Of a DNA stretch of 64,000 nucleotides, positions 12,167-51,373 are shown piece after piece. Origin of the DNA: Bacteroidales bacterium (GTDB taxonomy: Bacteria; Bacteroidota; Bacteroidia; Bacteroidales; Tenuifilaceae); contig JACABB010000025.1 of the NCBI GenBank assembly GCA_013376985.1, positions 1 through 64,000 on the forward strand, written 5' to 3'. The stretch's first letter is position 1, and the number at the start of each line of letters is the position of its first letter. A program made the position numbers and the translations under genes. The notes beneath the pieces are model-generated. The model was not told where the DNA came from, searched no databases, and saw only the letters and a list, made by a program, of their open reading frames with translations.

Positions 12167-12208
12167 AGTCGTTTAATTTTGATGTTTGTATGTATAACAA
12201 ACTAATGC

Positions 12209-13093: not shown

Positions 13094-13113
13094 ATCTTTC
13101 AGTTTAAAGTTAG

Positions 13114-13488
13114 CTAATTGTTGGGTGCGCTAGCGTTAATCCATTTTTGAATGGTTGTAATTTTACAACTTTCTAGCTGTGATGAACCCTTTGGCATTGG
13201 GTAACTGCTTGGCCAAATTATAGAACTTAAGAGTTTTCCATCATCAACTCTTAGTTTCACATCGCTATAATTTTCAAGCCTTATATTTCCACCATATGCT
13301 ACTGCGGTACTGTTACTATGGCAAGAGAGGCAAGAGTTTTCAAGAATGGGTTTAACTGCTCCCGAATAGGTAAAGTTTGTTGTATCGCAGGATGTGCTAA
13401 GCTTAGGATATAGAAACTCTTGACTATCATAGTAACAGCCCGACATGGCGAAAATAAATATAGCGACTATGGGAATTATTATTTTCAT
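13114..13488 (-). CDS. mono-heme cytochrome c-like lipoprotein
   Basis: A 124-residue protein with a signal peptide and likely lipobox cysteine (FAMSGC, Cys18), so probably membrane-anchored on the periplasmic side. It contains one heme-c motif, CLSCH, in the context KPILENSCLSCHSN, and a downstream YPMPKGSSQLES segment whose Met may be the sixth heme ligand. This layout matches the 'planctomycete cytochrome C' (PF07635-like) type common in Bacteroidota. It is followed at 20 nt by the DUF5777 gene. Confidence 0.8.
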   Translation of the reverse strand: MKIIIPIVAIFIFAMSGCYYDSQEFLYPKLSTSCDTTNFTYSGAVKPILENSCLSCHSNSTAVAYGGNIRLENYSDVKLRVDDGKLLSSIIWPSSYPMPKGSSQLESCKITTIQKWINASAPNN

Positions 13489-13555
13489 AGGATGTAATTT
13501 CTAATCATTATTTAACATTTCTGTCTGGGTAATATTTTATTGATTTCCAGTACCT

Positions 13556-13948
13556 CTAAGGATTACAAGTAGTGTTATTTGCTCCTTGCTCAATCCAAAC
13601 TAAGATTAAAGTCCGCTGATCCTTTGTCAGCGGTCTTTTGGGGGGCATCATATTCCCATTAACGGCAGTAATTACTTGGTAAATTTTACTTTTAGCAGCA
13701 CTACCGGGTTTAACAATTGGCATAATTGTTTGGTAACTATCGGTTGTAAACTCTCCTCCTTCACCACCTGCATCATGACACCCAGCTATACCACAAGATG
13801 TTTGCAGAATGGGCAAAATCTGAGTTTGGAAACATACAGTGTCAAGTTGACTAATGCCCATTGGATCGTGTTTACAAGAGTTGCTGAAAAATAAGGGAAG
13901 CAGCACAATCATTAGCATTAACGGGTATACAATTCTTTTTAAATTCAT
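13556..13948 (-). CDS. cytochrome c-like lipoprotein with C-x4-CH motif
   Basis: A lipoprotein of about 130 residues. I place the start at 13948 because MNLKRIVYPLMLMIVL gives a proper signal peptide with lipobox FSNSC; an in-frame start at 13981 adds 11 residues that would precede the signal. The heme-binding candidate is CGIAGCH, with four residues between the cysteines instead of two, and a later MMPPKRPLT supplies a possible axial Met. The surrounding sequence (ILPILQTSCGIAGCHD) is that of the PF07635-like family, in which this longer spacing is seen. It heads the operon toward yceI. Confidence 0.75.
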   Translation of the reverse strand: MNLKRIVYPLMLMIVLLPLFFSNSCKHDPMGISQLDTVCFQTQILPILQTSCGIAGCHDAGGEGGEFTTDSYQTIMPIVKPGSAAKSKIYQVITAVNGNMMPPKRPLTKDQRTLILVWIEQGANNTTCNP

Positions 13949-14040
13949 AATATTATACATTTGTAATGCTCGAAGGTACAATGAAATTGGTATTCACAAC
14001 CAAAAATTGATATATATCAACTTAAAACAGCTGAATATCT

Positions 14041-14341
14041 AAATAATTAATCTAAGTTGCTAGTTACTGGTTGCAAATTGCTAGTTTGTTGATTTACAGT
14101 ATTTAATTCTTTTTGCATTTAACTTTAATTTTAAGAGGCTAAAAAGGCTGTAGCTAAGAATAGCGAGTTAAACTTTGTGTTTTCTTAGTGTTTTAGTGCC
14201 TTGGTGGCTAAATAAAAGAATGCCCCAAAGCCACAAAAAATCACTATTGCAAATTACAACACAATTATAAACTACAACCACGAAAAATTCTACCAATCAT
14301 AATATCAGCAACTAGCATCTAGCAACTTGAGTTAATTATTT
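14041..14341. mobile_element. MITE-like inverted-repeat element, copy 1
   Basis: Terminal inverted repeats start AAATAATTAA with C(T)AAGTTGCTAG following: left at 14041-14065, right at about 14318-14341. Both subterminal regions match the element at 56965-57100 for some 50-60 bp each. The middle of this copy holds extra sequence, including a fragment of another repeat (TTAGTGTTTTAGTGCC). It fills almost the whole 391-bp gene-free stretch 13949-14339, and no transposase is encoded. The right end overlaps the stop codon of the neighbouring gene. No target-site duplication is evident. Confidence 0.6.
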
Positions 14342-15023
14342 AAGTTGTTCTAATCCGCTGAAGATTTGAGTTAAAAGCCTCTGAGTTGTAACTGGGATTA
14401 AATTGTTTATTACTTACTACCTCACCAGTTTCGTAATTAACATAGCCCTTGATATAATGGTTTGATAGCGTGAATACTTCATCATTATTATCATTAAAAC
14501 AAGGAATGATATCAGTTAGAACCTGTTCAACCTGCATGTTCAGTTTGCTTATAAGTTTGATCTCTTCGTCGTAATGGTTATATATACTATTCGATATACA
14601 GATAACTATTATATACTTGCCGTAGTATTTTCGAATATTATGTTTATACGTTAAATCAACGCTATCATTAATTATTTGCTCTGCAGTTTTTTCAAAGGAA
14701 TCGGCAAACTTGAACCCCTCTTCAAATATTTTTTTGGCGACATTTACATCTTTTGTATAATGCACAAATATTTTTGAATCCTTCTCGTTTGCAAAAAGGA
14801 ATTTCATTACAGTTTCATCAAAGAGTCTATCACGCTTTATGATTGTTTCATTCCCTAATAATCGGAGTTTTTCGAGTAGATTTAATACATGATTATTATC
14901 CCACTCCTTTTCATATTTAGTTAGCTTACCAACCATTGTTTCAATTAGGTGGTTTTTCTTACTAAGTTGAAAATGAAGAAAGACAATATAACCGAACAAT
15001 ATGCCAATTATGATATACTCCAT
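14340..15023 (-). CDS. unknown membrane-anchored protein
   Basis: I do not recognise this 227-residue protein as a named family. It has one N-terminal transmembrane helix (residues 2-18, YIIIGILFGYIVFLHFQ), a short charged coiled-coil-like stretch (20-60), then a globular domain. That domain contains FVHYTKDVNVAKKIFEEGF near residue 100, a pattern reminiscent of ADP-ribosyltransferase-like folds (His-Tyr-Thr strand then an 'xIxxEGF' helix). The rest of an ART triad is not obvious. The stop codon is formed at the edge of an inverted-repeat element, so the C terminus may have been altered by insertion. Confidence 0.6.
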   Translation of the reverse strand: MEYIIIGILFGYIVFLHFQLSKKNHLIETMVGKLTKYEKEWDNNHVLNLLEKLRLLGNETIIKRDRLFDETVMKFLFANEKDSKIFVHYTKDVNVAKKIFEEGFKFADSFEKTAEQIINDSVDLTYKHNIRKYYGKYIIVICISNSIYNHYDEEIKLISKLNMQVEQVLTDIIPCFNDNNDEVFTLSNHYIKGYVNYETGEVVSNKQFNPSYNSEAFNSNLQRIRTT

Positions 15024-15359
15024 AGTCTACAGCAAGATAGATTCTAAAAATATTATCCAATGAAGTTTCTAACAAAAGAGTGATGTACAGTGTTCAATAA
15101 TAATCAACAATACACTACTAGTCTTAAAAACTTCTCAACTTTCTATCTTTTAATAAGAACATTAACCAAAAGGAAATCATCGAAATTAATCCTCGGTTAG
15201 GTTATTAATGGCATGAAGAAAAGATTCTTTAATTAGCAAACTAAGTTATTGGTTTTTATTATGAAATACAAATTAGCAGGTAACAATAGGAAATATTGTA
15301 TGATGAATTGATTGAGGTAGAGAATAATGATTGAGTGATTTGATATTTTAGGCCTAAAA
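15024..15359. other. gene-free stretch upstream of the unknown membrane protein
   Basis: A+T-rich DNA of 336 bp with no convincing ORF, RNA gene or repeat. The only structure seen is a perfect 16-nt palindrome (ATTTTAGG/CCTAAAAT, 15345-15360) touching the smpB stop codon. It could be a weak transcript-end hairpin but lacks a T-run. Confidence 0.5.
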
Positions 15360-15809
15360 TTAACGTTTTGAGTACCTATCAATTTCCCTTTTAGCATCAT
15401 TCTGCTTAATGGTTTCGCGTTTATCGTGAGTTTTCTTGCCACGAGCCACAGCTATTTCAATTTTGGCGTAGCCTTTATCGTTAACGAATAATTTTAAAGC
15501 TACGATGGTAAGTCCCTTTTCGTTGGATTGACGTGAAAGTTTTATTAACTCTTTGCGGGTTAGGAGAAGTTTACGCTCTTGCCTAGGATCGTGATTATTG
15601 TATGTACCCCAATCGTATTCAGCAATATTTAACCCTTTTACCCAAAGTTCCCCGTTAACAAAATGGCAGTAAGCATCAAGAAAATTGGCTTTGCCTAATC
15701 TTATTGATTTTATCTCAGTTCCAGTAAGCACAATACCCGCAATATATTTTTCGATAATCTCGAACTCAAAGTAGGCTTTTTTGTTCTTTACCTGTGGGTT
15801 GCTATACAT
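15360..15809 (-). CDS. smpB: SsrA-binding protein SmpB
   Basis: Binds tmRNA and brings it to stalled ribosomes for trans-translation. The 149-residue length is typical. The N-terminal NKKAYFEFEI, the core GTEIKSIRLGKANFLDAYC, and the basic C-terminal tail GKKTHDKRETIKQ are SmpB hallmarks. The family usually has LxGTEVKSLRxGxANLxD near residue 35. No tmRNA gene is seen near it. It is transcribed alone from a Bacteroidota-type promoter just upstream. Confidence 0.97.
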   Translation of the reverse strand: MYSNPQVKNKKAYFEFEIIEKYIAGIVLTGTEIKSIRLGKANFLDAYCHFVNGELWVKGLNIAEYDWGTYNNHDPRQERKLLLTRKELIKLSRQSNEKGLTIVALKLFVNDKGYAKIEIAVARGKKTHDKRETIKQNDAKREIDRYSKR

Positions 15810-15862
15810 CGGTTATGTTGAATCGAATTATATTGATACTGGTTCATTCTTAAATGCAGTTG

Positions 15863-15897
15863 CAAAAATAGCTATTTTTACAGCATTGGGAGAACAA
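15863..15897 (-). promoter_or_regulatory. putative promoter of smpB
   Basis: On the minus strand a TATTTTTG box (complement of 15863-15870) fits the Bacteroidota -7 consensus TAnnTTTG. A TTG (complement of 15895-15897) lies 24 nt upstream, slightly beyond the usual spacing. It is 54 nt before the smpB start codon. Confidence 0.45.
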
Positions 15898-15999
15898 ATT
15901 TATTCGATTTGCTCTGATATTTTGAAATATAGCTAATTAACGTGAGCTATATGTAAGTTTAACATATTGATCCTAAGCATAGTATTAGATTGTTGCTTT

Positions 16000-16093
16000 G
16001 TCATGCTGAACGAAGTGAAGTATCTATTGTTTAGATAATTAGTTCCTTTTCTTCGCTCAGAACCGAGCTTGCGAGTTCGGCGTAGCCAATGAC
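16000..16093. repeat. dispersed 'GTCAT' palindromic element, copy A
   Basis: A 94-bp element starting GTCATGCTGAACGAAG and ending in the complement of GTCATTGGCTACGCC, in the smpB-miaA divergent intergenic region. Copy B (24430-24526) is nearly identical in the opposite orientation, and copy C (29134-29227) is more diverged. The remaining parts of the 379-bp gap hold only the two promoters. Confidence 0.75.
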
Positions 16094-16106
16094 AACTTAC
16101 ATTGAG

Positions 16107-16139
16107 TTGACGTTAATTAATTGACTGACGCTAATTTTA
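16107..16139 (+). promoter_or_regulatory. possible promoter of miaA
   Basis: TTG at 16107-16109 and TAATTTTA at 16132-16139, 22 nt apart, approximate the Bacteroidota -33/-7 pair. The last base of the -7 box is A instead of G, so support is modest. It is 50 nt before the miaA start and directly downstream of the dispersed palindromic element. Confidence 0.35.
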
Positions 16140-16188
16140 AAGATTAGCTAGGATCAGAAATCTCCTTTTTTATAATAATCACTTAATA

Positions 16189-36857: not shown

Positions 36858-38042
36858 TTACTTCCCGACGGGCAGTTTCATTTTACCTTTTTTAACAGCA
36901 TAAAGCATGTTAATTGACTTTGTTTTCCAGTTATAGCCAAGTACAAAAGGTACTTTTCGGTAAACTGAATCTTTGTATGCTTTAGCTAAATCAGGCTCAT
37001 TGATGTTTCCAAATTCCTTGTTGGGTTTTTGGTATTTACCATAAAGGCGAATATCCCATTTTGTTTTATCAAAGTACTGGTATCCAATGCCAGAATCATC
37101 CTGAAGAATACAATCACTCTTCTCGAAAATTGTATTACGAATCATCGAAAACTCTTTCCACTGCATTAGATAGGAGGCTGCTTTTAAATAAGAATATGAG
37201 TTAGGTAGATGTGATAGGTATTTTCTAAATCCTGGATTGAGGTTTAGCCCATTATCAGATAAATCGGTTTTGAAGTAGAATACGGATTGTGGTTTATCGC
37301 AATCAACATCAACAAAATCAATCTTTACACCTTTTGTAACACCTTTCATGCTTTTTAAGCTATCCAAATATTTCCAGTTGCCAGTCGGATCAACACCAAT
37401 CGGTTTAATCGACACAATATTATGGCCTGTACGTTTTATGAATAGGCTGATTAAGGGAACCGTACCGTTTACGCTATCTTTATTTAGTGCGCCAAGCATT
37501 TTCATGGTGATGAAATAGCTGCGCATAAATATATCTGACAAAGAGTGATTTACATTTGTAAGGTAGTTGTTTATCCCTTTGGGTTGCATCTTGCAAAGGT
37601 TTGGTATATCGCCAATTGGCTCGAGGGCAATCATTATATAATTTTGAGCCTTTGGAAAGAAAACATTTGCGTTAAGGAAATCGGGTCCTGAAAATGGGTA
37701 GAATACTGTTGTTGGGGCTTGATTATTTACCAGCTCACTATCAGCCCAATCTCTCATTTTCTGCAAACGATTAACTTCAATTTTTTTGAACATTGAATCC
37801 ATTGCGTAAGAAAATGACTTCCATTTGGTTGTTGTATCAAGACCTCTTAAACACTCTGTTTTACCATGAGCAACACCTGAAATAAACGCAACTCTATTAT
37901 CGATGATAGTATCGTAAGGGAATGTAATCCTTTTTATTACTGTAGTATCAGCAGAGGTTTTAACGTTTGCAGGTTTCGAATTGCACGAAAGGGCTATTAC
38001 GGGTAACAGTGCAAGACAAACAATGAGTTTTCTAGTTGACAT
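36858..38042 (-). CDS. unknown lipoprotein
   Basis: I do not recognise a named family. The 394-residue protein has a signal peptide with lipobox VIALSC (Cys20), so it is anchored in a membrane. The mature part is globular, with the conserved-looking stretches FISGVAHGKTECLRGLD, VFYPFSGPDFLNANVFFP and GVKIDFVDVDCDKPQSVFYF. The gene starts inside the last codons of the APC permease (11-nt overlap) and ends exactly where the serine hydrolase begins. This tight packing suggests that the three act together on the same substrate. Confidence 0.75.
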   Translation of the reverse strand: MSTRKLIVCLALLPVIALSCNSKPANVKTSADTTVIKRITFPYDTIIDNRVAFISGVAHGKTECLRGLDTTTKWKSFSYAMDSMFKKIEVNRLQKMRDWADSELVNNQAPTTVFYPFSGPDFLNANVFFPKAQNYIMIALEPIGDIPNLCKMQPKGINNYLTNVNHSLSDIFMRSYFITMKMLGALNKDSVNGTVPLISLFIKRTGHNIVSIKPIGVDPTGNWKYLDSLKSMKGVTKGVKIDFVDVDCDKPQSVFYFKTDLSDNGLNLNPGFRKYLSHLPNSYSYLKAASYLMQWKEFSMIRNTIFEKSDCILQDDSGIGYQYFDKTKWDIRLYGKYQKPNKEFGNINEPDLAKAYKDSVYRKVPFVLGYNWKTKSINMLYAVKKGKMKLPVGK

Positions 38043-39552: not shown

Positions 39553-41154
39553 TTAGAACCTAATTCTGAGTTGCCCATAGATTGTGTTAAACCTATCCTT
39601 TTGCTGGAAAGTTCCTTCGTAGTTTACGGATAGTAAGATATTCCTATAGATTTGCCATGAAAGATTTATATCGCCTACTTGTTGATGGATATCTAACTTG
39701 CTTATTACAAGATCGTAATCTAAAAAACGACATCCAAGTTCAGTTTGAAGTTTTCCTTTCAAAATGTCTCGGGAAATGTTGATCCCGTAAATTTCTCCTA
39801 TTAAATAGTTTGATTTCAAATAAGTACCTGAAACAGTAGCTGAAATATTTATACCTGGGATATTGTAGAAGGATAAATAGCCGTATGCGTTGTAGGCAGG
39901 ATGTGGATCCGATTTCAACGATCTGTAACCTCCTTGCAACCCAAACATAATACTCTTTGTAATCTGGTAATTTGCTTGAAGTCTGTAACTTTGCCGTTTC
40001 TCCTTTTCAAAAGTACTATCAATTAGGGTTTTGAACGACTCATAGTAAATAATATTTTTTCGTGCATCGTATGAGCCAGTTAAAGTTAACCTCTTAGTCA
40101 TCCGATACCGTAACGACAGGTACATTCCTGTAAGATTTGCGGTATTTTGAGGTTGATTATTATTAACTTTATATAAGTCTAATTCGAATGTACTATAAAA
40201 GTAAATGTTCTTAATGAGTGAATTTGAGTGTTGAAGGTAAAGAAATCTACGATCGGTTTTGGAACCATTCATCTGATTCATGAACGCTACTGAACTTTCG
40301 GTAAATGTATTTTCTGATTTAGTATCAAATGCCAGATATGCTCCATATTGAAGGAGTTTGGAGTTAAAACCATAATCCATATAATCGGGTCTTGAACCAA
40401 CAACAGCACCAAAACCAAATCCTTTTATCTTTTTATCAAATTGAAGTCCATCCATTGCTCCAATACTGGAAATCCTTGAATTCAATTTGCGACCAAAGCT
40501 GATTTGAGTAGTTTTGTTAAGATCATATCTTACCGCCAAATCATATACTTTCAGAGCATTAAAAACATTACTCTTTACTTCAGCCCAGTCACCAATCTTA
40601 TGTCTAAATGATAAATAGCTTTCAAAAGATAATCTGGAATTTGAGATATTGTCAGCATTAATTGAAAATGTATATCGAAAGAGTTGAGAGTTTTTGGCGG
40701 CAGTATTTGAGAAATAAGAATAGGAACTAGTTGAAATATTTCCTCTAACTTTTTCACTGTATTCGCTATCTATATGTTTTTTATCTGGTTTTTTAGTCTC
40801 TTGAATTTGATTTTCTGTAATAGTTTTTTCAATAACCTTTTCTTGTTGATTTACTTTAATAGTCTTGGGTTTTGCTATAATCTTATCGGCAACAGAGAGA
40901 CTTACTTGTGATAGCAATGAGCAAACGCATGAAGTTGACGACAGGTTGTTAACCTTCAGAACTGGTGTTATGTTACCGTTAAGTGAGGAGTAGAGCGTAT
41001 CGCCAATAGAGATACCTTTAGTGGAATTGAATTTTACGTAAACATTTTCGGAACTCATAAAAGTAACTTGACCAGATAGTTGTACACCAGTCACTTGTCC
41101 GAAAAGCGTATTACCAAAGACGATAAAACAAATTGCAAAAAGTATTTTTCTCAT
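39553..41154 (-). CDS. outer-membrane beta-barrel protein of the multiheme operon
   Basis: A 533-residue exported protein. A signal peptide (ending NTLFGQ) precedes a small domain with a TSCVCS cysteine pair (near residue 76) and a Lys/Glu-rich linker (about 100-135). About 400 residues of alternating amphipathic strands follow, such as FSFGRKLN, YLSLRYRMTKRL and TLTGSYDARKN, ending in the aromatic strand YGQLRIRF typical of outer-membrane barrels. I know no named family. It is the last gene (9 nt after the 22-heme gene) and would be the pore component of a porin-cytochrome-like conduit. Confidence 0.75.
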   Translation of the reverse strand: MRKILFAICFIVFGNTLFGQVTGVQLSGQVTFMSSENVYVKFNSTKGISIGDTLYSSLNGNITPVLKVNNLSSTSCVCSLLSQVSLSVADKIIAKPKTIKVNQQEKVIEKTITENQIQETKKPDKKHIDSEYSEKVRGNISTSSYSYFSNTAAKNSQLFRYTFSINADNISNSRLSFESYLSFRHKIGDWAEVKSNVFNALKVYDLAVRYDLNKTTQISFGRKLNSRISSIGAMDGLQFDKKIKGFGFGAVVGSRPDYMDYGFNSKLLQYGAYLAFDTKSENTFTESSVAFMNQMNGSKTDRRFLYLQHSNSLIKNIYFYSTFELDLYKVNNNQPQNTANLTGMYLSLRYRMTKRLTLTGSYDARKNIIYYESFKTLIDSTFEKEKRQSYRLQANYQITKSIMFGLQGGYRSLKSDPHPAYNAYGYLSFYNIPGINISATVSGTYLKSNYLIGEIYGINISRDILKGKLQTELGCRFLDYDLVISKLDIHQQVGDINLSWQIYRNILLSVNYEGTFQQKDRFNTIYGQLRIRF

Positions 41155-41163
41155 AAATCAACA

Positions 41164-42834
41164 TTAATCACTAGTTCCTCTTGGATGACAATGGAAGCAA
41201 GAAGGACTGTCATAGGAGTAACCTGTTCTCCCTCTATGCTTATTGTCCATATCAGTTTTGTTATGTTCATGGCAGCTGATACAGGTAAATTGCGCATAAC
41301 TCGAAGGATTTGAATGACAGTCGGTGCATGAGTTCCATTGATTTCTATGTTTTCCAGAATATATTGGAAATGATTGGCTATCGTGTTGCAGATACGATGC
41401 CGGTTTCCAACCGGGATTAGTTGTATGGCATTGTGTACATACGCTTGAAAATCCTAATGTTTGATGATTAGGATTGACCGTTTTATTGTAATCAGTTTGA
41501 TGACATGTGATACAATCCGATGATGTTGAGGTGTAGTTTCCTTTATGACAATCATTACAGGTTGGCGTTGAATGCCCAAGCGTGAGCGCAAAACTACTAT
41601 GATTAAAGGTTGTTGGCTTCCAACCCGGATTAGTTGTATGACATTGAGTACATACTGTTGAAAAACCGGAAGTGCTGTGATTAGGGTTTGTTGTGGATTG
41701 AAAATCCTTTTGATGGCATGAATAGCAATCCGTAGAAGTTGAAGCGTAATTGTTATTGATATGGCAATCGGAGCATTTTGGTCCAGAGTGACCTAACGTA
41801 AGTGGAAATTTGCTATGGTCGAATTTGGCTGGAGTCCAACCCGGATTGGTTGTATGGCACTGCGTGCAAACTGTGGAAAAACCTGATGCGCTATGGTTAG
41901 GATTATTAGTTCCTGCATAATCCTTTTGGTGGCATGTGTAGCAATCGGTAGATAATGAACTATATGTGCCGCTTGTATGACAATCGATACACTTTGGTCC
42001 AGAGTGACCTAATGTAAGAGGGAAACTTCCATGATCAAAACTTGCAGGCTTCCATCCGGGATTAAGAGTATGGCAATTCCCACAAGTTGTAGGAAAACTG
42101 GATGCGCTATGATTTGGATCTGTTGTTGAGGTGTAATCCTTTTGATGGCATGAGTAACAATCAGTTTTTGCATCTGAATATCTTCCTGTTGTGTGACAAT
42201 CAGAGCATTTTGGGGTTGCGTGCCCTTGTACAAGAGCAAAGAAACTATGATTAAAACCTGCACCACTCCACTGCATTGAGGTTGATGGATGGCAAGTGGA
42301 ACAATCCTCAGAAAATCCTGCCTGAATGTGATTGGGGTTTGTGGTTGCCATGTAGTTTTGACGGTGGCAGTCGATGCAATTTACGCCAGCAACATCAAAA
42401 CTAGTTTGGCTCTCAGATTTGTGACACTGAATGCAATCGGCAGTTTTGTGAGCACCCAGCAATGGGAAGTGGCTCATTTGATGAATTTCACTTATATTGT
42501 TTACCAACCATGAATTTGGAGTGTGGCAACGTGAGCAGTCAGGGCCAGTTGTTGTTTTATGCACATCTGTATGACATTCGTTGCATTTGTTTTTTGCTCC
42601 TTTAAATATAAGCGTTTGGTGGCATTGCCTACAATTCACATCAGCATGACGACCAACAAGCGGAAATCTAGTTGTGTTGTGGTCAAAGGAGTATACTTCC
42701 TTATCAAGTTGCCAACCTTTGGAACTATGACATGTTTTGCAGCTAACCTTAAAATCAGCACCATGAGGCGATTGGGTCTTCTGATTTAAAACGATTAGCA
42801 ATGCAGGGATGATCAAGAGTGACAAGATTCGCAT
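41164..42834 (-). CDS. 22-heme c-type cytochrome
   Basis: A 556-residue exported protein with 22 CxxCH heme-c motifs, about one per 25 residues. The N terminus is a hydrophobic signal region (MRILSLLIIPALLIVLNQ) with no clear lipobox. Residues ~150-510 consist of five tandem modules of about 70 residues with three hemes each (pattern CxxCHQxDY, NPNHSxSGFSTVCTQCHTTNPGW, FPLTLGHSGPKCxDCH). Extra His residues before hemes probably supply the sixth ligands. It overlaps the 23-heme gene by 22 nt. It should form a multi-heme wire in the periplasm or cell surface. Confidence 0.95.
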   Translation of the reverse strand: MRILSLLIIPALLIVLNQKTQSPHGADFKVSCKTCHSSKGWQLDKEVYSFDHNTTRFPLVGRHADVNCRQCHQTLIFKGAKNKCNECHTDVHKTTTGPDCSRCHTPNSWLVNNISEIHQMSHFPLLGAHKTADCIQCHKSESQTSFDVAGVNCIDCHRQNYMATTNPNHIQAGFSEDCSTCHPSTSMQWSGAGFNHSFFALVQGHATPKCSDCHTTGRYSDAKTDCYSCHQKDYTSTTDPNHSASSFPTTCGNCHTLNPGWKPASFDHGSFPLTLGHSGPKCIDCHTSGTYSSLSTDCYTCHQKDYAGTNNPNHSASGFSTVCTQCHTTNPGWTPAKFDHSKFPLTLGHSGPKCSDCHINNNYASTSTDCYSCHQKDFQSTTNPNHSTSGFSTVCTQCHTTNPGWKPTTFNHSSFALTLGHSTPTCNDCHKGNYTSTSSDCITCHQTDYNKTVNPNHQTLGFSSVCTQCHTTNPGWKPASYLQHDSQSFPIYSGKHRNQWNSCTDCHSNPSSYAQFTCISCHEHNKTDMDNKHRGRTGYSYDSPSCFHCHPRGTSD

Positions 42835-44621
42835 GTGAATGTTTTTAGTTTATATTTAACATAAGTCTGTGATCCTTCTTGTTGTGGTTTATGGCATTTT
42901 ATGCAAGGTACGTTAATATGTTTACCATCAAGTTTAAAAGCTGCTGTATTGTGATCGAATTTAGAATCATTCCAATTATCGGTACTATGGCATTCAGTAC
43001 AATTTGTTATCCCGTTTTTCTCAAACTGTTTAAAGTGATTATCGGTATGGCAACTTGAACAATTTGATGGTAACCCAGTAAATTTTTGCTGTTCATTTCC
43101 ACCTACATCTTTTTTAAAGTGACATTCTTTACAGTTTCGTTTAAGATGTGCACCAGTTAGTTTGAAGTTGGTTTTTGAATGGTCGAATGAAACATCTTCC
43201 CATTGGGATTCATTATGACAGATTTTGCAATTTGCGTTGGGATAGTATTTTGATGGAATATAGGTTTGGTGTATATCTGTATGGCAATCTTTGCAATTAT
43301 TACCAATATCCTTGAAACTCCACTTCTCCTGTTTTTTGTGACATTCATTACATGCTGTTGCCATATGCGCACCCAAAAGTGGGAACAAACTTTTATTGTG
43401 TTGCTCAATAGTGTAAGTGACAAAATTAAATCCTTTCACAACGTGGCATTGCGAACAATCAGGTGATACTCCGTTTTTAGAAAATTGATTATTGTGGTAA
43501 TCGGTATGACAATCTTTACAATTTTTCCCAATATCCTTGAAACTCCATTTCTCCTGTTTCTTATGACATTGGTTACAAGTTACTGGTGCATGAGCACCAA
43601 GTAGAGGGAAGGGGCCTATATTATGCTGTTCAATTGTAAATGTGTATAAGTTAAAACCTTTTGTAGAATGGCATTGGGAGCAGTCGGGCGAAATGTTGTT
43701 TTTAACAAACTGGTTATTGTGGTAATCGGTATGACAATCGGTACAACGATCATGTTTAATTGGATCGGTAAGCTTTGTCTTATGGCACGATTTGCAATCA
43801 ACGCTGAGGTGTTTATCCACAAGGTTGAAGTTTGTCTTACTGTGATCAAAGTTTTTACCCTTAATTGCATGGAATGATTCCTCGCTATGGCATTGTCGAC
43901 AATTTTGTCCGAACTGATTCTGATGAGGATCTTTATGGCAATTAGTACAATTAGTATGTGCAACTCCCTGAAACTCCTGAAATCTTTTCCCGTCTTTCAC
44001 ATCAACTTTATGGCATTTTAAACACTCCACATTAGCATGTTTTCCCACCAATTGAAATTTAGCGTTAGCATGATTAAATTTAGTGGCTGGCTTAAATGCA
44101 TCGGGATTATGACAATTCAAACAAGTTGAAGAAAGTGTTTTCTGGTGATAATCTTCGTGGCAGCTTAAACATTCCCTGTTTAAACCCATGTAGGTGTAAT
44201 TTTTTGCCTTTATCTTCTGATCTGAAATGGATTTAGCGTTGTGACAATCTTTACATTCCTTTTTAGAGTGGGGAATAGACAAAGAAAATCCTGTAAGATT
44301 ATGGTTAAAAGTTTTAACATCAAGGCGAATAAGCTGAAAGTTTTTTCCATGATGATCGTTATGGCAGTCAAAACACTGTTTCCCCTTAACATCAGTGGAT
44401 GAATGATACCCTTTTTGAAGATTAATTTCTGTATGGCAAGCCAAACATTTTTCGCTAGCTACTTTGCTGCCTAGAACATGGCATTGAGTACAATTTGAAA
44501 TACCTTCGAGATGCGAGTGTGGGTTAGATAAATCACCGGGTGAAATTTGTGCTGTAGTATTAAAAAACAGCAACATCAACGTAAGAAAAACTCCAAAAGA
44601 TATTCCTGATTTACCGTGCAT
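42813..44621 (-). CDS. 23-heme c-type cytochrome
   Basis: A 602-residue exported protein with 23 CxxCH motifs. A signal peptide (ending FFNTTAQ) is followed directly by the first heme. Recurring units (FDHSKTNFxLxGxHxxxxCxxCHK, CTDCHTDYHNNQF, SPDCSQCH) mark a repetitive heme chain, again with abundant non-motif His for axial ligation. Family resemblance is to the large multiheme cytochromes used in periplasmic or outer-surface electron transfer. Its end overlaps the start of the 22-heme gene, so both are made together. Electron path and substrate are not determined. Confidence 0.95.
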   Translation of the reverse strand: MHGKSGISFGVFLTLMLLFFNTTAQISPGDLSNPHSHLEGISNCTQCHVLGSKVASEKCLACHTEINLQKGYHSSTDVKGKQCFDCHNDHHGKNFQLIRLDVKTFNHNLTGFSLSIPHSKKECKDCHNAKSISDQKIKAKNYTYMGLNRECLSCHEDYHQKTLSSTCLNCHNPDAFKPATKFNHANAKFQLVGKHANVECLKCHKVDVKDGKRFQEFQGVAHTNCTNCHKDPHQNQFGQNCRQCHSEESFHAIKGKNFDHSKTNFNLVDKHLSVDCKSCHKTKLTDPIKHDRCTDCHTDYHNNQFVKNNISPDCSQCHSTKGFNLYTFTIEQHNIGPFPLLGAHAPVTCNQCHKKQEKWSFKDIGKNCKDCHTDYHNNQFSKNGVSPDCSQCHVVKGFNFVTYTIEQHNKSLFPLLGAHMATACNECHKKQEKWSFKDIGNNCKDCHTDIHQTYIPSKYYPNANCKICHNESQWEDVSFDHSKTNFKLTGAHLKRNCKECHFKKDVGGNEQQKFTGLPSNCSSCHTDNHFKQFEKNGITNCTECHSTDNWNDSKFDHNTAAFKLDGKHINVPCIKCHKPQQEGSQTYVKYKLKTFTCESCHS

Positions 44622-44645
44622 ATTTGTATTGTTTTTGACTTACCA

Positions 44646-45992
44646 CTAATGTTTCAAAACTGTTTCACCAAATTTCTTCGTAATTTTAATTCCAGCTTTT
44701 TCCAGGAATTGAGTTGGTAGTTCGCCTCCTGCAAAAATATAGACAAGATCATTTTTTAATGTAAGATTTTCACTCTCTTTACCTACCGAAAGTGTAACTG
44801 TATCGTCTTCAATTGATAAAAGATTAGAACCTAACCGAACCTCAATTTTTCCTTCAGCGACAGCCTTATTCAAGGCCATACTATTTTGTGGTTTAATTCG
44901 ATTAAAAACCTCATTGCGGTAGGAGAGGATTACATGGTTTTGATCTGCTAGGAGTAGGGCTGATTCAACAGCAGAGTCACCACCTCCTACAACAATTACA
45001 TGCTTACTAGATATTGCCTCGGGTTCCAAAAGGCGATATGCCACTTTTTCCTTCATTTCTCCGGGAATATTCAATTTTCTTGGTGTTCCACGCCGACCTA
45101 TGGCTAGCAAAATGGCTGCAGAGGAAAATTCATCACCTTTTATGGTTGAAACTTTAAATATTCCATCTGCTGGAACAATAGACTCTACCTTTGAATTCTC
45201 ATTAACGGAAATATTGTTTTTCTTTAACACTGTTTGCCACAAATCAAGCAACTCAGTTTTACTAGTCTCGAAAAGTTTAATCTTCCCATAAAGAGGTAGA
45301 TCCATTGGAGAGGTCATTACAATTTTTTTCCGAGGAAAAGTAAAAACAGTACCACCTAAAGTATCCTGTTCAAGAAGCAAGAATTTTAATCCATGCTTCT
45401 TTGCATTCAAGCAACCAGAAATTCCAGCAGGCCCTGCGCCAACTATGATCAAATCGTACGTGGCCGAATGATTTTTCTTAATCGATTTAACAATATTGTC
45501 AACCGCCTGTCTGCCTTGTTCTACCGAATTTTTTATCAGACCCATGCCACCTAATTCTCCGGCAATAAAGATTCCTGGTACGTTTGTCTCAAAGTTCTGA
45601 TTTACATGTGGAAGATCAACACCACGCTTTTCGGTTCCGATGCGTAAGCTAATGGCTTCGGTTGGACATGCATGAAAACATGCTCCGTGCCCAATGCACT
45701 GGGATGCATTGATGATAGTTGCTTTGCCATTTCTTATGCCTATAATATCATGCTCGGGGCAAGCAGCAACGCAGGCACCTGTCGCAATGCAGCTATTTAC
45801 ATCAACAACTGGATGAAGCGAAATGGGTTCGTAAAGACCGTCTTCTTTTGCCTTTTTTATCTTTTCATCAACGATTTTTGATTCTCTCTTTTTTTTACGC
45901 AGATAAATTGCAACCACAACAATACAAAGGATTGCTGCAAAAGAGTAAATCAATATGCTTTCAATTAATTGTTCCATACTCAAAAAATCCAT
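44646..45992 (-). CDS. membrane-anchored ferredoxin/FAD NAD(P)H oxidoreductase
   Basis: A 448-residue fusion. An N-terminal transmembrane helix (about 13-31) is followed by a ferredoxin-like domain (60-115) and a thioredoxin-reductase-like FAD/NAD(P)H domain. FAD motif GAGPAG is at 185-190, and the NAD(P)H motif GGGDSAVESALLLA follows. The two Fe-S motifs are C68-x5-C74-x3-C78-P and C99-x5-C105-x3-C109-P. The cysteine normally in the middle is Thr71 in one and His102 in the other. No redox CxxC of thioredoxin reductase is present, so it likely passes electrons from NAD(P)H to the Fe-S centres and a membrane partner. It overlaps the upstream gene by 13 nt. Confidence 0.85.
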   Translation of the reverse strand: MDFLSMEQLIESILIYSFAAILCIVVVAIYLRKKKRESKIVDEKIKKAKEDGLYEPISLHPVVDVNSCIATGACVAACPEHDIIGIRNGKATIINASQCIGHGACFHACPTEAISLRIGTEKRGVDLPHVNQNFETNVPGIFIAGELGGMGLIKNSVEQGRQAVDNIVKSIKKNHSATYDLIIVGAGPAGISGCLNAKKHGLKFLLLEQDTLGGTVFTFPRKKIVMTSPMDLPLYGKIKLFETSKTELLDLWQTVLKKNNISVNENSKVESIVPADGIFKVSTIKGDEFSSAAILLAIGRRGTPRKLNIPGEMKEKVAYRLLEPEAISSKHVIVVGGGDSAVESALLLADQNHVILSYRNEVFNRIKPQNSMALNKAVAEGKIEVRLGSNLLSIEDDTVTLSVGKESENLTLKNDLVYIFAGGELPTQFLEKAGIKITKKFGETVLKH

Positions 45993-46855
45993 CTATAACC
46001 AAATGCGATAGTCACCGCAACATGAATAATCATAATAATAAGCATTACAAGTGCAAAAGGAGAATGAACCACATGCCAATATTTGAATAAATTTTGCATC
46101 GTATCAAGTCGTTCAATTCGCCGGTTCAATTTGATATCATTTTTAACTAACGCAAGTATCTTTTTGTACTCATCTTTTTTTAGGTTGTTCTTTTTGAGTG
46201 AGGCTTTAACCGTTTTAATAGTTTTGCGGTCATCGAAATATTTCCTGATATAACGAACAATAGCGTATTTATGGTATAATTCAACTTTCTTTTTGATAGA
46301 ATCGGCTAAAATGCTATAGCTCTCCTCGTCTAGGTTGTAAGATTTTTTTACTATATCTGCCACATCGCTTTTCATCTCCCTAACTTCATTTAGGCTAAGT
46401 TCACGACCTTCAATTGATCTTGGAATTTGAATATAAATAAACCTTCCTATCACTCCGCTCAGAAAAACGGCAACCATACTCCAAAAGCTTATTGCGACCA
46501 ATCCTCCAAATTTAAATGCTGTATGAAATAGAATCAAAATTGGTCCTAGTGTACATAGGAAGATATGAAATTCGAGCCAGTATTTTAATAGCCCCAATCG
46601 CGATAATAACCGATATCTTTTCCTAACCATATAAATGCTCACTCCAATAATCATAAACAAAGATCCAATAATCCCCATACCATGTCCCAAAATACCACTT
46701 GGTTTTAATAAACTATGATCTGGGTGATAGAATCTTTCTTCAATACCTACTTTATAATAAGATATCCCTTTGTATAAAAGAGTAATTAATGTGACGATTA
46801 CGATTACAACTAATATGCTTATAAATATTCTGTGAGCGATTTTAGACATATTCAA
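45980..46855 (-). CDS. His-rich four-helix membrane protein, possible cytochrome b
   Basis: A 291-residue inner-membrane protein with four predicted helices (about 9-28, 55-76, 95-142 as one or two helices, and 265-288) and a large charged cytoplasmic loop (150-250). Histidines lie in or at the helices: His58 (GHG), His97 and His111 in the third, His261 and His264 (WHVVH), and His278 in the last. This is a pattern that could bind two b-hemes. I do not recognise a named family. As first gene of the multiheme operon it would link the quinone pool to the periplasmic cytochromes, but that is inference. Confidence 0.62.
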   Translation of the reverse strand: MNMSKIAHRIFISILVVIVIVTLITLLYKGISYYKVGIEERFYHPDHSLLKPSGILGHGMGIIGSLFMIIGVSIYMVRKRYRLLSRLGLLKYWLEFHIFLCTLGPILILFHTAFKFGGLVAISFWSMVAVFLSGVIGRFIYIQIPRSIEGRELSLNEVREMKSDVADIVKKSYNLDEESYSILADSIKKKVELYHKYAIVRYIRKYFDDRKTIKTVKASLKKNNLKKDEYKKILALVKNDIKLNRRIERLDTMQNLFKYWHVVHSPFALVMLIIMIIHVAVTIAFGYRWIF

Positions 46856-47269: not shown

Positions 47270-50200
47270 TTACTTGTTAAGTAATACCTTTTGAGTGTAT
47301 ACTTTATTACCAACAATCAGTTTGATGATATAGGTACCAGGAATAAAGTTACCGTTAATCCTATTCAATCCTTGGGTTAAATTAACAGTTGTGTATAGCT
47401 GATTCCCAAGAATATTAAATACGCCAAGTTGTGCAATACCTTCAAAAACGGGAATTTCAACAAAAATACTCTTCGTGTCGGAGTAAATTGTGATTTTATT
47501 TAGCTCATTTGGATCTACATAGGTGTTTGGAGAAATAGTAAAATCTGCTGAGACAAACGATATATTATAGTTTGTTCCTGCTGTTAGAGTTCCTAATTGT
47601 ATAGCGTAGGTTCCTACCGTTTCCCCTGTAACCCGTGTCAGTTCTCCTGTAAGTGCATCGCCAGATATTAGACTACCACTAGTAATCGTGTAAGTAAACA
47701 CGGGATCGACTTCTCCTGTTTTTTTGGATTGGTTTGCTGTGGCTGTAATTTCAAGTGGGCGAGCAGTGATATCTGCTGTTAATCCAGTTTGCTGGATAAG
47801 GTTATAATTGTCAGCATCAGTCCCTGAAATAGTTACGCCAGTTATGGTTATTGACTTACCAGTATCAACATTTTTATTGGCAAATGAACCAGTAGAGGTA
47901 CCGCCAACATTCACAATGTCATTACCTAAAGTGGTTACTGCAGCAGCACCCCCTAGGTTTGCAGTAGTTGTTCCGTCATAAACCTTACTGCTTGCTGTAA
48001 TACCAGTAACTGTTAGAGTTGCTTTGTTGATATTTGCTGTTAATCCAGTTTGCTGGATAAGGTTATAATTGTCAGCATCAGTCCCTGAAATGGTCACACC
48101 GGTTAAGGTTATCGATTTACCAGTACCAACATTTTTATTAGCAAATGTACCTATAGCAGTACCGCCAGCATTCACAACATCACTGCCTAAAGCGGTTATT
48201 GTAGCAGCACCTCCTAGATTTGCAGTTGTAGTTCCGTCATAAACCTTACTGCTTGCTGTAATACCAGTTACCGTTAGATTTGCTTTGCTGATATTAGCGG
48301 TAGCAGTGGGTGCGCCCGATAAGGAAAGCGTATAGTTCGAGGCACTTGTCCCTGTGAGAGAAGAGCCAGTGAGTCTGACCATTTTCCCAGATGTCTTCGA
48401 ATCAATAACATTTTTGTCAGCAAAAACTAAAACAGGAGTAAGTACAACATCATCGCCACTGATTTTTGTGATCAATGTTAAATTGTTTTGATCAATGGTT
48501 GCATCAGTGGTACCATCGTATACCTTATCTTCAGCAGTGAACGATCCACCAATGGTAAGTTCCTTTGCCGTAATATTTGCTGTAGTTGTAGGAGCACCAA
48601 CCATTGATAGTGTATAATTAGCGATATCGGTACCCAAGAGCGATGAACCAGTTAGATTAACAGTTTTGCCCGATGTTTTAGTAACAATAACATTCTTATC
48701 AGCAAAGAAGGCTGTTGGATTAAGGGTAACATCATCTCCGCTAATCTTTGTGATCAGAGTTAAATTGTTTTGATCAATGGTTGCATCTGTTGTTCCATCG
48801 TATACCTTATTTTTAGCAGTGAATGATCCACCAATGGTGAGTTCCTTTGCTGTAATATTTGCTGTTGCCGTAGGTGCATCACTAAATGAAAGTGTATAGT
48901 TTGATACATCAGCACCTCCGAGCGATGAACCTGTTAAACTAACAGTTTTTCCAGAAGGACCACCACCTTTCGTTGTGTTAACATTCTTATCTGAAAAAGA
49001 TGCGACAGCGGTAATCGTAACATCATCGCCGCTAACTTTTGTAATCAATGTTAAACTGTTCTGGTCGATGGTAGCATCAGTTGTGCCATCGTACTCTTTG
49101 TTTTTAGCAGTAAATGAGCCGCCAATTGTAAGACTCTTTGCCGTGATTAAAGCGCTTGCAATAGGAGCGCCTGTAAAGGATAAAGTGTAGTTCGATGCAT
49201 CAACACCTCCCAATGTTGACGCATTTAAATTTACCAATTTTCCGGGTATTTTAGAGATTAAAACATTTTTATTAACAAAATTTGCAACTGCGGTAAGGGT
49301 AACATCGTCTGAACCAACTTTTGTGAGCAATGTTAGGCTGTTAGTAGCAATGGTTGCATCTGTTGTTCCATCATACACTTTGCTACTTGCAGTGAACGAA
49401 CCTCCAATGGTGAGTTCTTTTTTCGAAACAGTTATGCTTATTGGATCAGAGAATGCCTCAGTACACGTACCGCTTTTTACATAAGCTCTGTATTGCCATG
49501 TGCCAATCGATGATGGATCTTCGCTATAGGTTGCAATTGTATTAGTAATATCTTCCCAAGAACCTGTACCAACCATTTTCTGCCATTTTACTATTGTTCC
49601 GGTATACCCTCCAAGGGTTATAGTTCCAGTAGAACCACCATAGGTAATGGAACTGTTTCCACCAGTTATGCTTCCACCAACAGAAGCTGGATCAACGGTC
49701 ATCTTCACTACATTCGATTCTGCTGCTCCTATCCAATCGCTTTTGCAGGCCACACGGGCAACTCGCTTATACCAAGTAGTTACAGAAATTGAGTTAGGAT
49801 CGTAAGTAGATGCATTGCTGCTTGCAATATCTGAAAAGCCAGAACTACTGCTTGTTGTAGATTGTTGCCACTTATACTCAAGCGTTCCAGTATGTCCAGT
49901 TGGTAGAGTAGAGCTCGTTATTAAAGCGGGATCGAGTGAAGTACAACCAGTTTGATCTTCTGCTATTGCTCCACCATCAGTTGGATTAACACATGGAGTA
50001 TTGGTTGTTTGACTCTTTGGATTATTCGTGGCGGTAGCGATGTTGTACTTTTCGCTACCGGCGACATCGTTATATTCAAATACTTGCACAGTATATTGTG
50101 TGCCAGCAGTAAGACCAGTTAACGTAACGGAGTTACTGCTATTATTGTATATGCAGTAATACCCTGATGTACCTAACTGTGTTCCTTTTGAAGTCCAGTC

Positions 50201-51373
50201 GGTGCTGGCAGTGTAGGTTGTATTATCGCTAGGATTTGTGATTGCTCCAGTTCCCTCTTTTACAAATACTACTCTGTTTGCTCCATTTCCACTAGTCCAA
50301 CCAATAGTCATTTGGGTTGTTTGTATGCTTGTGAAAACAATTTCGGATGCTTGAGTGGTTGGAGCTACAACAGAAATTATCTGCCATGCTAAATGAGGAT
50401 AACCCTCGTTATCAGTTGAGTTTATATGCCAAATAGGGGTTGTAACAAAATCCCAACCTGCATCAGAGAATGTGGTTTGCGTTTTCATTTGTGCAGTGGT
50501 TTTCCCAGTTCCTCCTGAACTACTTGCTGCACCTGATGTTTGAGTGTCCCAAAAAGAATTTGTTGTAGATGCACTTGCACCTTGTCCTCCTAAAAGACCT
50601 CCCTTTGAAGCGGGTGCTGTTACCGTACCAGTTGAATAACATTTATCAACTGTTCCCGTTGAATTATTATAACCTAATAACCCACCAGCGGTTGTGGCGG
50701 TTGCTACTACGGAACTCTTTGAATAACAATTATTAATGTTGCCACCGTAGCAGTATCCACCAATTCCACCTACCATATCATGGCCTGTGATTGTTAGCCC
50801 TGTGGTATAACATTGGGTGATTGTACTGCCTGAGTAAGGACTTCCACATATACCAGCAACATAGGAATACCCTGATATAGTTCCTGATGATACATAGCAA
50901 TTTTGTACAATTGCTCCAGGAAATGTCCATCCAGTAATACCGCCAATCCCATTCTTGGTGGAGGTAATATTTACATTTTCTAAACCTAAATTCTTTATGC
51001 TCCCATTCATATAACCACCAAAAAGTCCAACGCCATTGCTTAGCGTGGTATTGTTTATAAACAGATTCGATATTTTATGCCCATTACCATCATAGGTGCC
51101 GCTAAACTTGTAGGAATCATTCCCAATGCAAGGCCATCCTGTTCCAGTATTGTAAGGAGATACATTTAGATCAAGATCTGCTGTTTGCTTGAAGTATATT
51201 CCTGAGTAATTTGTTCCGCTGTTGACATTGGTGGCGAGAGTCCCTAGGTCAGTTACTGATGAAATAAGGTAAGGATCACCTGAAGTACCAGATCCCCCAC
51301 TATATAATAAAATAGCGTTAGCATTTTGAATGAAAATACCAACTAGTAGAGTAAGAGTAAAAATCTTTTTCAT
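47270..51373 (-). CDS. YDG/MBG-repeat adhesin-like protein with T9SS sorting domain
   Basis: A 1367-residue secreted protein. A signal peptide (about 19 residues) is followed by GLUG-like repeats (about 90-260, GGLLGYNNSTGTVDKCYSTG), a fibronectin type III-like region (about 350-450), and Ig-like segments. Six YDG repeats follow, each starting with (T/A)SKVYDGTT or KNKVYDGTT, then one MBG domain. The last ~75 residues (ITIYSDTKSIFVEI... to KVLLNK) look like a T9SS type A sorting domain. It should be displayed on or released from the cell surface as an adhesin or filament. A terminator follows; the gene is transcribed alone. Confidence 0.9.
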   Translation of the reverse strand: MKKIFTLTLLVGIFIQNANAILLYSGGSGTSGDPYLISSVTDLGTLATNVNSGTNYSGIYFKQTADLDLNVSPYNTGTGWPCIGNDSYKFSGTYDGNGHKISNLFINNTTLSNGVGLFGGYMNGSIKNLGLENVNITSTKNGIGGITGWTFPGAIVQNCYVSSGTISGYSYVAGICGSPYSGSTITQCYTTGLTITGHDMVGGIGGYCYGGNINNCYSKSSVVATATTAGGLLGYNNSTGTVDKCYSTGTVTAPASKGGLLGGQGASASTTNSFWDTQTSGAASSSGGTGKTTAQMKTQTTFSDAGWDFVTTPIWHINSTDNEGYPHLAWQIISVVAPTTQASEIVFTSIQTTQMTIGWTSGNGANRVVFVKEGTGAITNPSDNTTYTASTDWTSKGTQLGTSGYYCIYNNSSNSVTLTGLTAGTQYTVQVFEYNDVAGSEKYNIATATNNPKSQTTNTPCVNPTDGGAIAEDQTGCTSLDPALITSSTLPTGHTGTLEYKWQQSTTSSSSGFSDIASSNASTYDPNSISVTTWYKRVARVACKSDWIGAAESNVVKMTVDPASVGGSITGGNSSITYGGSTGTITLGGYTGTIVKWQKMVGTGSWEDITNTIATYSEDPSSIGTWQYRAYVKSGTCTEAFSDPISITVSKKELTIGGSFTASSKVYDGTTDATIATNSLTLLTKVGSDDVTLTAVANFVNKNVLISKIPGKLVNLNASTLGGVDASNYTLSFTGAPIASALITAKSLTIGGSFTAKNKEYDGTTDATIDQNSLTLITKVSGDDVTITAVASFSDKNVNTTKGGGPSGKTVSLTGSSLGGADVSNYTLSFSDAPTATANITAKELTIGGSFTAKNKVYDGTTDATIDQNNLTLITKISGDDVTLNPTAFFADKNVIVTKTSGKTVNLTGSSLLGTDIANYTLSMVGAPTTTANITAKELTIGGSFTAEDKVYDGTTDATIDQNNLTLITKISGDDVVLTPVLVFADKNVIDSKTSGKMVRLTGSSLTGTSASNYTLSLSGAPTATANISKANLTVTGITASSKVYDGTTTANLGGAATITALGSDVVNAGGTAIGTFANKNVGTGKSITLTGVTISGTDADNYNLIQQTGLTANINKATLTVTGITASSKVYDGTTTANLGGAAAVTTLGNDIVNVGGTSTGSFANKNVDTGKSITITGVTISGTDADNYNLIQQTGLTADITARPLEITATANQSKKTGEVDPVFTYTITSGSLISGDALTGELTRVTGETVGTYAIQLGTLTAGTNYNISFVSADFTISPNTYVDPNELNKITIYSDTKSIFVEIPVFEGIAQLGVFNILGNQLYTTVNLTQGLNRINGNFIPGTYIIKLIVGNKVYTQKVLLNK

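Follow-up and report, generated by a model that had tools for sequence, protein, structure and literature searches.

Why would a bacterium encode 45 heme-attachment motifs in two adjacent cytochrome genes and place them in one operon with a flavoprotein, a membrane protein, and an outer-membrane-type barrel? This question is raised by a 64,000-nucleotide stretch of DNA from a Bacteroidales bacterium (family Tenuifilaceae; assembly GCA_013376985.1, contig JACABB010000025.1, positions 1 to 64,000; hereafter, the window), in which five genes follow one another on the minus strand. It is probable that these genes form an electron path driven by reduced nicotinamide adenine dinucleotide or its phosphate (NAD(P)H), leading from the cytoplasm to the exterior across both membranes, with a wire that grows by triheme units. 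The reading is weighed here against the gene content, the conserved linkage, the conservation of heme motifs and histidines, the barrel prediction, and the quantisation of heme numbers in steps of three.

By their coordinates, the genes are ordered for transcription as MEM (45980–46849; an integral membrane protein of 289 amino acids), FDX-FAD (44646–45992; 448 amino acids, combining ferredoxin sites with a flavin domain), MHC-A (42813–44621) and MHC-B (41164–42834), two c-type cytochromes with 23 and 22 CxxCH motifs, respectively, and BBP (39553–41154; the predicted barrel), with successive spacings of -13, +24, -22, and +9 nt. These frames and counts agree with the original prediction, a note made from the sequence by a model that regarded the locus as a Bacteroidota electron-transfer conduit. 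The MEM frame had been listed as 45980–46855 with a TTG start, which is probably wrong because the alignment of its relatives begins at an ATG two codons on, at 46849. A chance origin of the heme motifs was ruled out by 2000 shuffles of each cytochrome's residues (mean 0.3, maximum 3, versus the 22 and 23 found), and within the window no other open stretch longer than 60 amino acids carries more than one CxxCH. Scans for promoters (29 versus 30.7 ± 5.0 in shuffled sequence) and terminators (4 versus 5.5 ± 2.2) remained at the shuffled level and say nothing on transcript ends.

The original prediction had been made dependent on conservation of the gene order in relatives, and such conservation was found. 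Scanning species genomes with FDX-FAD returned 91 relatives, of which the best 80 loci were kept (58–86% identity in the best segment); their titles include Bacteroidales, Saprospiraceae, Flavobacteriaceae, Cytophagaceae, and Ignavibacteria, so that the attribution to Bacteroidota stands while a restriction to that phylum does not. Profile searches, which were confined to one phylum, matched MEM in 26 of the order's 197 genomes and, across the phylum, in 41 of 394 (both figures include the genome from which the window comes). The 59 further stretches added from MEM-matched genomes brought the set to 139 loci, and removal of six with an identical 280-residue flavoprotein stretch left 133 non-redundant ones. 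All five parts occur in one of two orders in 95 of the 133: MEM, FDX-FAD, at least two cytochromes, and BBP (order A) in 81, and MEM, cytochromes, BBP, and FDX-FAD (order B) in 14. Among the 38 loci without some part, 29 reach the end of their contig or stretch and nine do not; the nine include L171 and L196, whose MEM was matched by the profile and then lost in the frame filter. In L150, which comes from a closed genome, about 15 kb separates FDX-FAD from MEM. Three loci (L045, L180, and L183) were classed by hand from the locus listing, overriding the script label. Related loci are non-independent samples, and because all were found through FDX-FAD or MEM, the frequency of the cytochromes without these two is not shown by the survey.

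A flavoprotein tree built by a quick method separates orders A and B (branch support 61%) and mostly clusters named families together, a grouping that suggests old, mostly vertical inheritance with loss; one row of the tree (L189) is a wrong-frame artefact that distorts the midpoint root. The first four genes are also present, up to the contig end, in an assembly labelled Melioribacter roseus (L073), a species reported to use Fe(III) (PMC3534657).

The two cytochromes behave very differently across these loci. MHC-A is a partner of nearly fixed length: in 124 complete first-cytochrome frames, 20 motifs occur in 78, 23 in 39, and 19 in three, the four shorter frames (18, 12, 10, and 5 motifs) including three that are split. 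MHC-B, by comparison, ranges from 10 to 88 motifs (82 and 73 in the Saprospiraceae loci L040 and L072), and its numbers fall in steps of three. When CX3CH and CX4CH motifs are counted along with CxxCH, 109 of 120 complete non-first cytochrome frames hold a number equal to 1 modulo 3; as these looser motifs were allowed after exceptions had been seen and favour the rule, the strict CxxCH count is also given, at 104 of 120. The 11 frames off the rule comprise those of L059, L075, and L157 (where the MHC-A frame is split), L163 and two of L197 (split MHC-B), L068 (a frame that ends 149 nt short of the contig end and is missing its C-terminal cap), and four real exceptions, all third cytochromes, in L178, L179, and L181 (9 motifs) and L201 (12). 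The splitting of cytochrome genes into two frames in L163, L197, L059, L075, and L157 reflects either sequencing error or real frameshifts.

The steps of three arise because a triheme unit of 72–76 residues repeats, with heme spacings of about 31–37, 15–16, and 25–28 residues. In the window, this unit is visible as a 216-bp (72-amino-acid) tandem repeat within the MHC-B gene (41619–42018, minus strand; 1.9 copies with 76% matches in Tandem Repeats Finder; heme spacing 31/16/25), and repeats of 225/228 bp occur in L042. All 924 triheme units counted have a minimum of two extra histidines in segment one and of one in segment three, so that each heme can have a distal histidine. Heme number also shifts rapidly: only 9 of the 30 pairs whose flavoproteins are at least 80% identical have equal MHC-B counts; L166 and L168, whose flavoproteins are 98% identical, have MHC-B proteins with 31 and 43 motifs, respectively. 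In order B, the parts can occur as separate genes, and we infer that MHC-B consists of a core of 10–13 hemes and an optional wire: L165 has a 40-motif array beside a 10-heme protein resembling the MHC-B C-terminal part (E 1e-49), and L167, L169, and L176 have, within 19-kb stretches, a 10-heme second cytochrome only, together with the barrel. A second, 13-heme MHC-B-like gene is found in or beside the operon in L008, L009, L018, L049, and L184, and in L160 (about 11646–16170, reversed orientation) the operon is followed by a further cytochrome array (34 and 10 motifs), which is accompanied by a short MEM-like gene and may be a sister system.

Both window cytochromes begin with a signal-peptide-like hydrophobic stretch, and neither matches any PDB sequence (0 phmmer matches at E 0.01), the nanowire cytochromes OmcS, OmcE, and OmcZ included. 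MHC-A shows similarity, but below the curated cut-offs, to the DmsE/MtrA decaheme family TIGR03508 (44.9 bits versus 192.2) and, weakly, to the ExtN/ExtO selenite/tellurite proteins (33 bits versus 200). Heme-to-heme rise in OmcS, OmcE, and OmcZ is about 0.7–0.85 nm. About 15 nm would thus be covered by 20 hemes, which approximates the periplasm, while the roughly 65 nm of an extended 88-heme chain is too long for it; MHC-A is therefore placed in the periplasm and MHC-B at the open end. This placement is a geometric argument rather than a localisation, and a folded-back chain or a storage role would evade it.

The identity of BBP as a barrel, on which the original prediction likewise hung, is borne out by structure prediction. 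The AlphaFold model (mean predicted local distance difference test score, pLDDT, 83.9) comprises a signal-peptide-like helix, a small beta domain (residues 26–94), a low-confidence link, and a 22-strand barrel (residues 135–532), and the best 50 Foldseek matches shown are all outer-membrane proteins (FimD/PapC ushers, AlgE, TonB-dependent receptors, Occ, and other porins; best E 2.2e-10). BBP relatives have no informative Pfam or NCBIfam match. An outer-membrane barrel encoded with exported multiheme cytochromes, the hallmark of porin-cytochrome conduits, is thus predicted here. Barrel length is 544.6 ± 18 amino acids (n = 90 loci) while MHC-B varies almost ninefold, and this constancy beside cytochromes of 10–88 hemes is one reason for favouring a conduit; the correlation of barrel length with heme number (Spearman 0.20, p 0.054, n = 90) is weak and is not counted as positive. 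A second reason is that order B relocates the flavoprotein gene to the far end of the operon and yet retains it.

That flavoprotein, FDX-FAD, starts with one hydrophobic helix followed by a basic stretch, an arrangement that should leave its body in the cytoplasm. The six ferredoxin cysteines are each present in 127 or 128 of 128 aligned sequences (one row, L189, being in the wrong frame); the usual second cysteine is replaced by histidine at site 2 in 127, and at site 1 the position holds serine in 65, threonine in 42, cysteine in 13, glycine in 7, and alanine in 1. Both sites thus mostly depart from the CxxCxxCxxxCP pattern of 2[4Fe-4S] ferredoxins. CxxHxxC sites occur in mycobacterial [3Fe-4S] ferredoxins. 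The rest of the protein is a thioredoxin-reductase/YpdA-type domain for flavin adenine dinucleotide (FAD) and NAD(P)H according to Pfam, NCBIfam, and PDB matches (161.9 bits against TIGR04018, cut-off 339.9), and it appears to be circularly permuted, with the C-terminal FAD-binding piece preceding the N-terminal one. Residues 178–442 match positions 4–271 of a solved relative, and residues 116–173 match positions 237–294, at the C-terminus, of a thioredoxin reductase (E 1.9e-4); the latter is the sole significant match behind the permutation, since the second-domain matches of a second PDB search, which weakly repeat the order, are individually insignificant and count only through that order. 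Beyond the six ferredoxin cysteines, none is invariant in 30 aligned relatives, including any equivalent of the redox cysteines of thioredoxin reductase and YpdA, which makes a disulfide reductase role unlikely. On the simplest reading, FDX-FAD would act as an NAD(P)H dehydrogenase and divide the hydride into single electrons to be handed to MEM. Of the two inputs considered in the original prediction, NAD(P)H or quinone, the former is favoured because FDX-FAD has an FAD/NAD(P)H domain without a conserved redox cysteine of its own; a quinone site in the b cytochrome is still compatible with these data.

MEM had been described as histidine-rich; it has 10 histidines in 291 residues, of which five are nearly invariant among 126 relatives (H95 and H109 in 126, H259 and H276 in 125, and H262 in 124). 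Cytochrome b of the bc1 complex holds two stacked hemes by histidine pairs 14 residues apart on helices n and n+2. Two such pairs, H95/H109 and H262/H276, each 14 residues apart, are found in MEM, whose hydropathy peaks (about 8–26, 57–75, 94–112, 116–134, and 265–283) coincide with helices in an all-helical structure model (pLDDT 76.9). MEM is therefore regarded as a candidate transmembrane diheme b-type cytochrome, heme loading being presumed from these histidines, although the window protein lies below all Pfam and NCBIfam cut-offs and its profile gave chance-level matches only against PDB sequences. As the loop between helices 2 and 3 is rich in arginine and lysine, the long, variable loop between helices 4 and 5 should be cytoplasmic by the positive-inside rule, and FDX-FAD could dock there.

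The proposed path would thus begin with reduction of the FAD of membrane-anchored FDX-FAD by NAD(P)H, after which single electrons would move through the two Fe-S sites, reach MEM at its cytoplasm-side heme, traverse the membrane to the heme on the periplasmic side, and continue to MHC-A, whose 20 or 23 hemes would bridge the periplasm. Were the proteins to form a complex, exit would occur through the MHC-B core (about 10–13 hemes), presumably seated in the 22-strand BBP, with extra triheme units lengthening the wire. Its likeliest role would be to unload electrons from NAD(P)H onto acceptors outside the cell (Fe/Mn minerals, humics, or partner cells) when oxygen is scarce. A bolder version is possible but somewhat doubtful, namely, a quinone-independent, one-operon device linking NAD(P)H in the cytoplasm to the cell exterior by electron transfer, in which the 10–13-heme core sits in the barrel and any number of 72–76-residue triheme units forms a single-chain wire of genetically set length, its end free and its extent ranging from no added unit up to 88 hemes in all (about 65 nm if extended), while a 20- or 23-heme partner spans the fixed-width periplasm. 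If this version is true, the homologues make up a series of molecular wires whose lengths were varied by evolution.

Several observations weigh against the proposed conduit. No lipidation or sorting signal supports the presumed presence of MHC-B at the cell surface: neither window cytochrome has a lipidatable cysteine before its first heme motif, and Pfam detects no sorting domain on them. In Foldseek the barrel reaches TM-scores of 0.51 at most, which is modest, no MtrB-type or other cytochrome-bearing barrel is among the 50 matches shown, and the MtrB/PioB model is absent from the families that 41 barrel relatives match at E 0.01. A search of the window's genome with TIGR03509, the model of the MtrB/PioB barrel family (which also has a Pfam counterpart), gave no match, although its controls were silent too. 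The three-cysteine sites of FDX-FAD could hold atypical clusters or none. MEM resembles DUF4405 (PF14358) weakly, at E 0.01 in 11 of 43 relatives (best E 3.7e-5; 14.4 bits for the window protein, cut-off 26.7), and its fold search returned no match (best E 0.27). Six loci (L027, L045, L070, L082, L170, and L180) hold only some of the parts despite enough sequence beyond; in L170, MEM is broken by stops and a full-length FDX-FAD is not among the frames listed, and in L027 (MEM and FDX-FAD) and L045 (MEM, FDX-FAD, and MHC-A) about 8–10 kb without the remaining parts follows, which could reflect a reduced version, a rearrangement, or a misassembly. Lastly, some hosts are presumably aerobic Flavobacteriaceae, for which mineral respiration is not obviously the main need.

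Such hosts would fit with a periplasmic electron capacitor, in which electrons from NAD(P)H are kept on the hemes during brief periods of anoxia, cytochrome length sets capacity, and the barrel serves for anchoring or export; up to 88 heme motifs in one chain would suit such a store, as would the probable aerobes (host names being taken from the loci and their habit presumed). Its occurrence is nevertheless judged unlikely, given that the barrel gene directly follows the cytochrome genes in both main orders and that the three order B loci with a 10-heme second cytochrome only retain a barrel that a store would not need. A capacitor-like role has been speculated for long secreted cytochromes of activated-sludge bacteria (PMC11495043). 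Quinol could instead drive the conduit, with MEM as the quinol oxidase and the flavoprotein as a side branch or a redox-control enzyme. Quinone sites are frequent in diheme b cytochromes. The known conduits fed by the quinol oxidases CymA, CbcL, and ImcH provide a precedent, as summarised in the source (PMC6295460); however, the flavoprotein gene stays adjacent in both arrangements and its product is conserved at 58–86% identity in the best 80 of 91 loci (though these were found through the flavoprotein itself), and a quinol-driven path is held to be improbable.

Electrons might also flow inward through the same conduit, being taken up from Fe(II), a metal, or a partner cell. The NAD(P)H-type flavoprotein at the inner end, without an oxidase link, makes this direction quite unlikely, as does the fact that forming NAD(P)H from Fe(II) is energetically uphill, even though the host genome has two matches to the heme-copper oxidase family PF00115 that could consume electrons. 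Conduits of this kind can be bidirectional (PMC8258643). A reductase devoted to some small or soluble oxyanion, with no general conduit, is a still fainter prospect: the resemblance of MHC-A to ExtN/ExtO, which would favour it, is far under the cut-off, and the 924 triheme units all have enough histidines for bis-histidine hemes, so that the repeats show no obvious heme left open for catalysis. An outward, NAD(P)H-driven conduit thus remains the probable function.

The proposed input resembles that of NADPH oxidase and ferric reductase, in which NAD(P)H electrons pass through a flavin and two stacked b hemes to the outside, yet no family relation was detected by Pfam, NCBIfam, PDB sequence, or fold searches, and the operon adds Fe-S sites and a c-heme wire. 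Likewise, FDX-FAD has the FAD/NAD(P)H fold in common with thioredoxin reductase-type ferredoxin:NADP+ oxidoreductases and YpdA but differs in its apparent circular permutation, fused ferredoxin, membrane anchor, and lack of an invariant redox cysteine. As in MtrCAB, MtoAB, and PioAB, the barrel and multiheme cytochromes are encoded together for a proposed outer-membrane electron transfer; those systems use decahemes, unlike the 20/23 and 10–88 hemes seen here, and the present operon additionally encodes an NAD(P)H-type flavoprotein and a b cytochrome as its input. The Geobacter Pcc (OmaB-OmbB-OmcB) and OetABI cassettes also cluster a periplasmic cytochrome, a barrel, and a second cytochrome but, as described, lack a cytoplasmic electron input (PMC4245776; PMC10553843); OetB is by description an extracellular lipoprotein; in the MHC-B of the window, by contrast, no cysteine precedes the first heme motif.

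Within Bacteroidota and Ignavibacteria, the parts of the literature available describe several related systems. The Bacteroidetes_1 bioanode cluster spans seven genes, six for multiheme cytochromes and one for a barrel, with closest database matches in Bacteroidetes and Ignavibacteriae, but no flavoprotein is described (PMC8258643). Saprospiraceae cytochromes from activated sludge have, like MHC-B, very many heme motifs by description, and undescribed Bacteroidota cytochromes there exceed 100, although the account includes neither an operon nor a triheme rule (PMC11495043). Reports also exist of conduits in Ignavibacterium album (PMC4245776), of putative novel ones in lake Bacteroidetes (PMC6344600), and of OmbB-like conduits with cytochromes of up to 40 motifs in two Ignavibacteria (PMC7399161); the last source also notes that heme numbers vary among homologues in Burkholderiales and Anaerolineales, a topic it calls unexplored. 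No description of this gene set, of its flavoprotein/b-cytochrome input, or of the triheme rule was found in the open-access literature, as far as its available text goes (most subscription journals lie outside it). Conduits with a barrel and cytochromes are therefore already known; comparison of descriptions suggests that the flavoprotein/b-cytochrome input and the triheme-quantised MHC-B are new.

The genome that carries the window (5.26 Mb in 85 contigs) encodes, in a 1034-amino-acid frame, a Cytochrom_C_asm protein, a type required to attach c-hemes; in 23 of the 133 loci, a ResB/Cytochrom_C_asm gene is present no more than about 6 kb from the operon (one representative identified). Besides the two PF00115 matches, molybdopterin oxidoreductase family matches occur in three frames, and another cytochrome locus (L214:413–3930, host contig C27), with a 7-CxxCH protein beside a membrane protein and one with a twin-arginine-like start, looks respiratory. 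With these loci in the genome, the operon is probably one of several respiratory options. Next to the operon, the window encodes upstream (47270–51373) a large secreted-type protein with six YDG stretches, an MBG domain, and an fn3 domain that shows no sign of a conduit role, and, at 36858–38042, a 394-amino-acid protein with a lipoprotein-like start that matches no Pfam family at E 0.1. In 33 of the 133 loci, a lipoprotein-like gene accompanies the operon (25 downstream, 6 upstream, and 2 inside; e.g., L008:1635–2102, minus strand), its tested representative having no Pfam or NCBIfam family match. A TPR protein gene is present in 22 loci (e.g., L151:4888–5484) and lies inside the operon in 19 of these, between MEM and FDX-FAD in L146 and L151.

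If the proposed conduit is correct, approximately one-tenth of the sampled genomes of the phylum Bacteroidota (the 41 of 394 with MEM), with cultured genera among the carriers (Emticicia aquatica, Aequorivita antarctica, Ulvibacter antarcticus, and Hanstruepera spp. being cultured examples), would have an unrecognised route for the export of NAD(P)H electrons. Such a route could help to explain the reported presence of Bacteroidetes and Ignavibacteria on anodes (PMC7399161). Moreover, homologous wires of 10–88 hemes that act with the same partners would make the length dependence of conduction and function testable.

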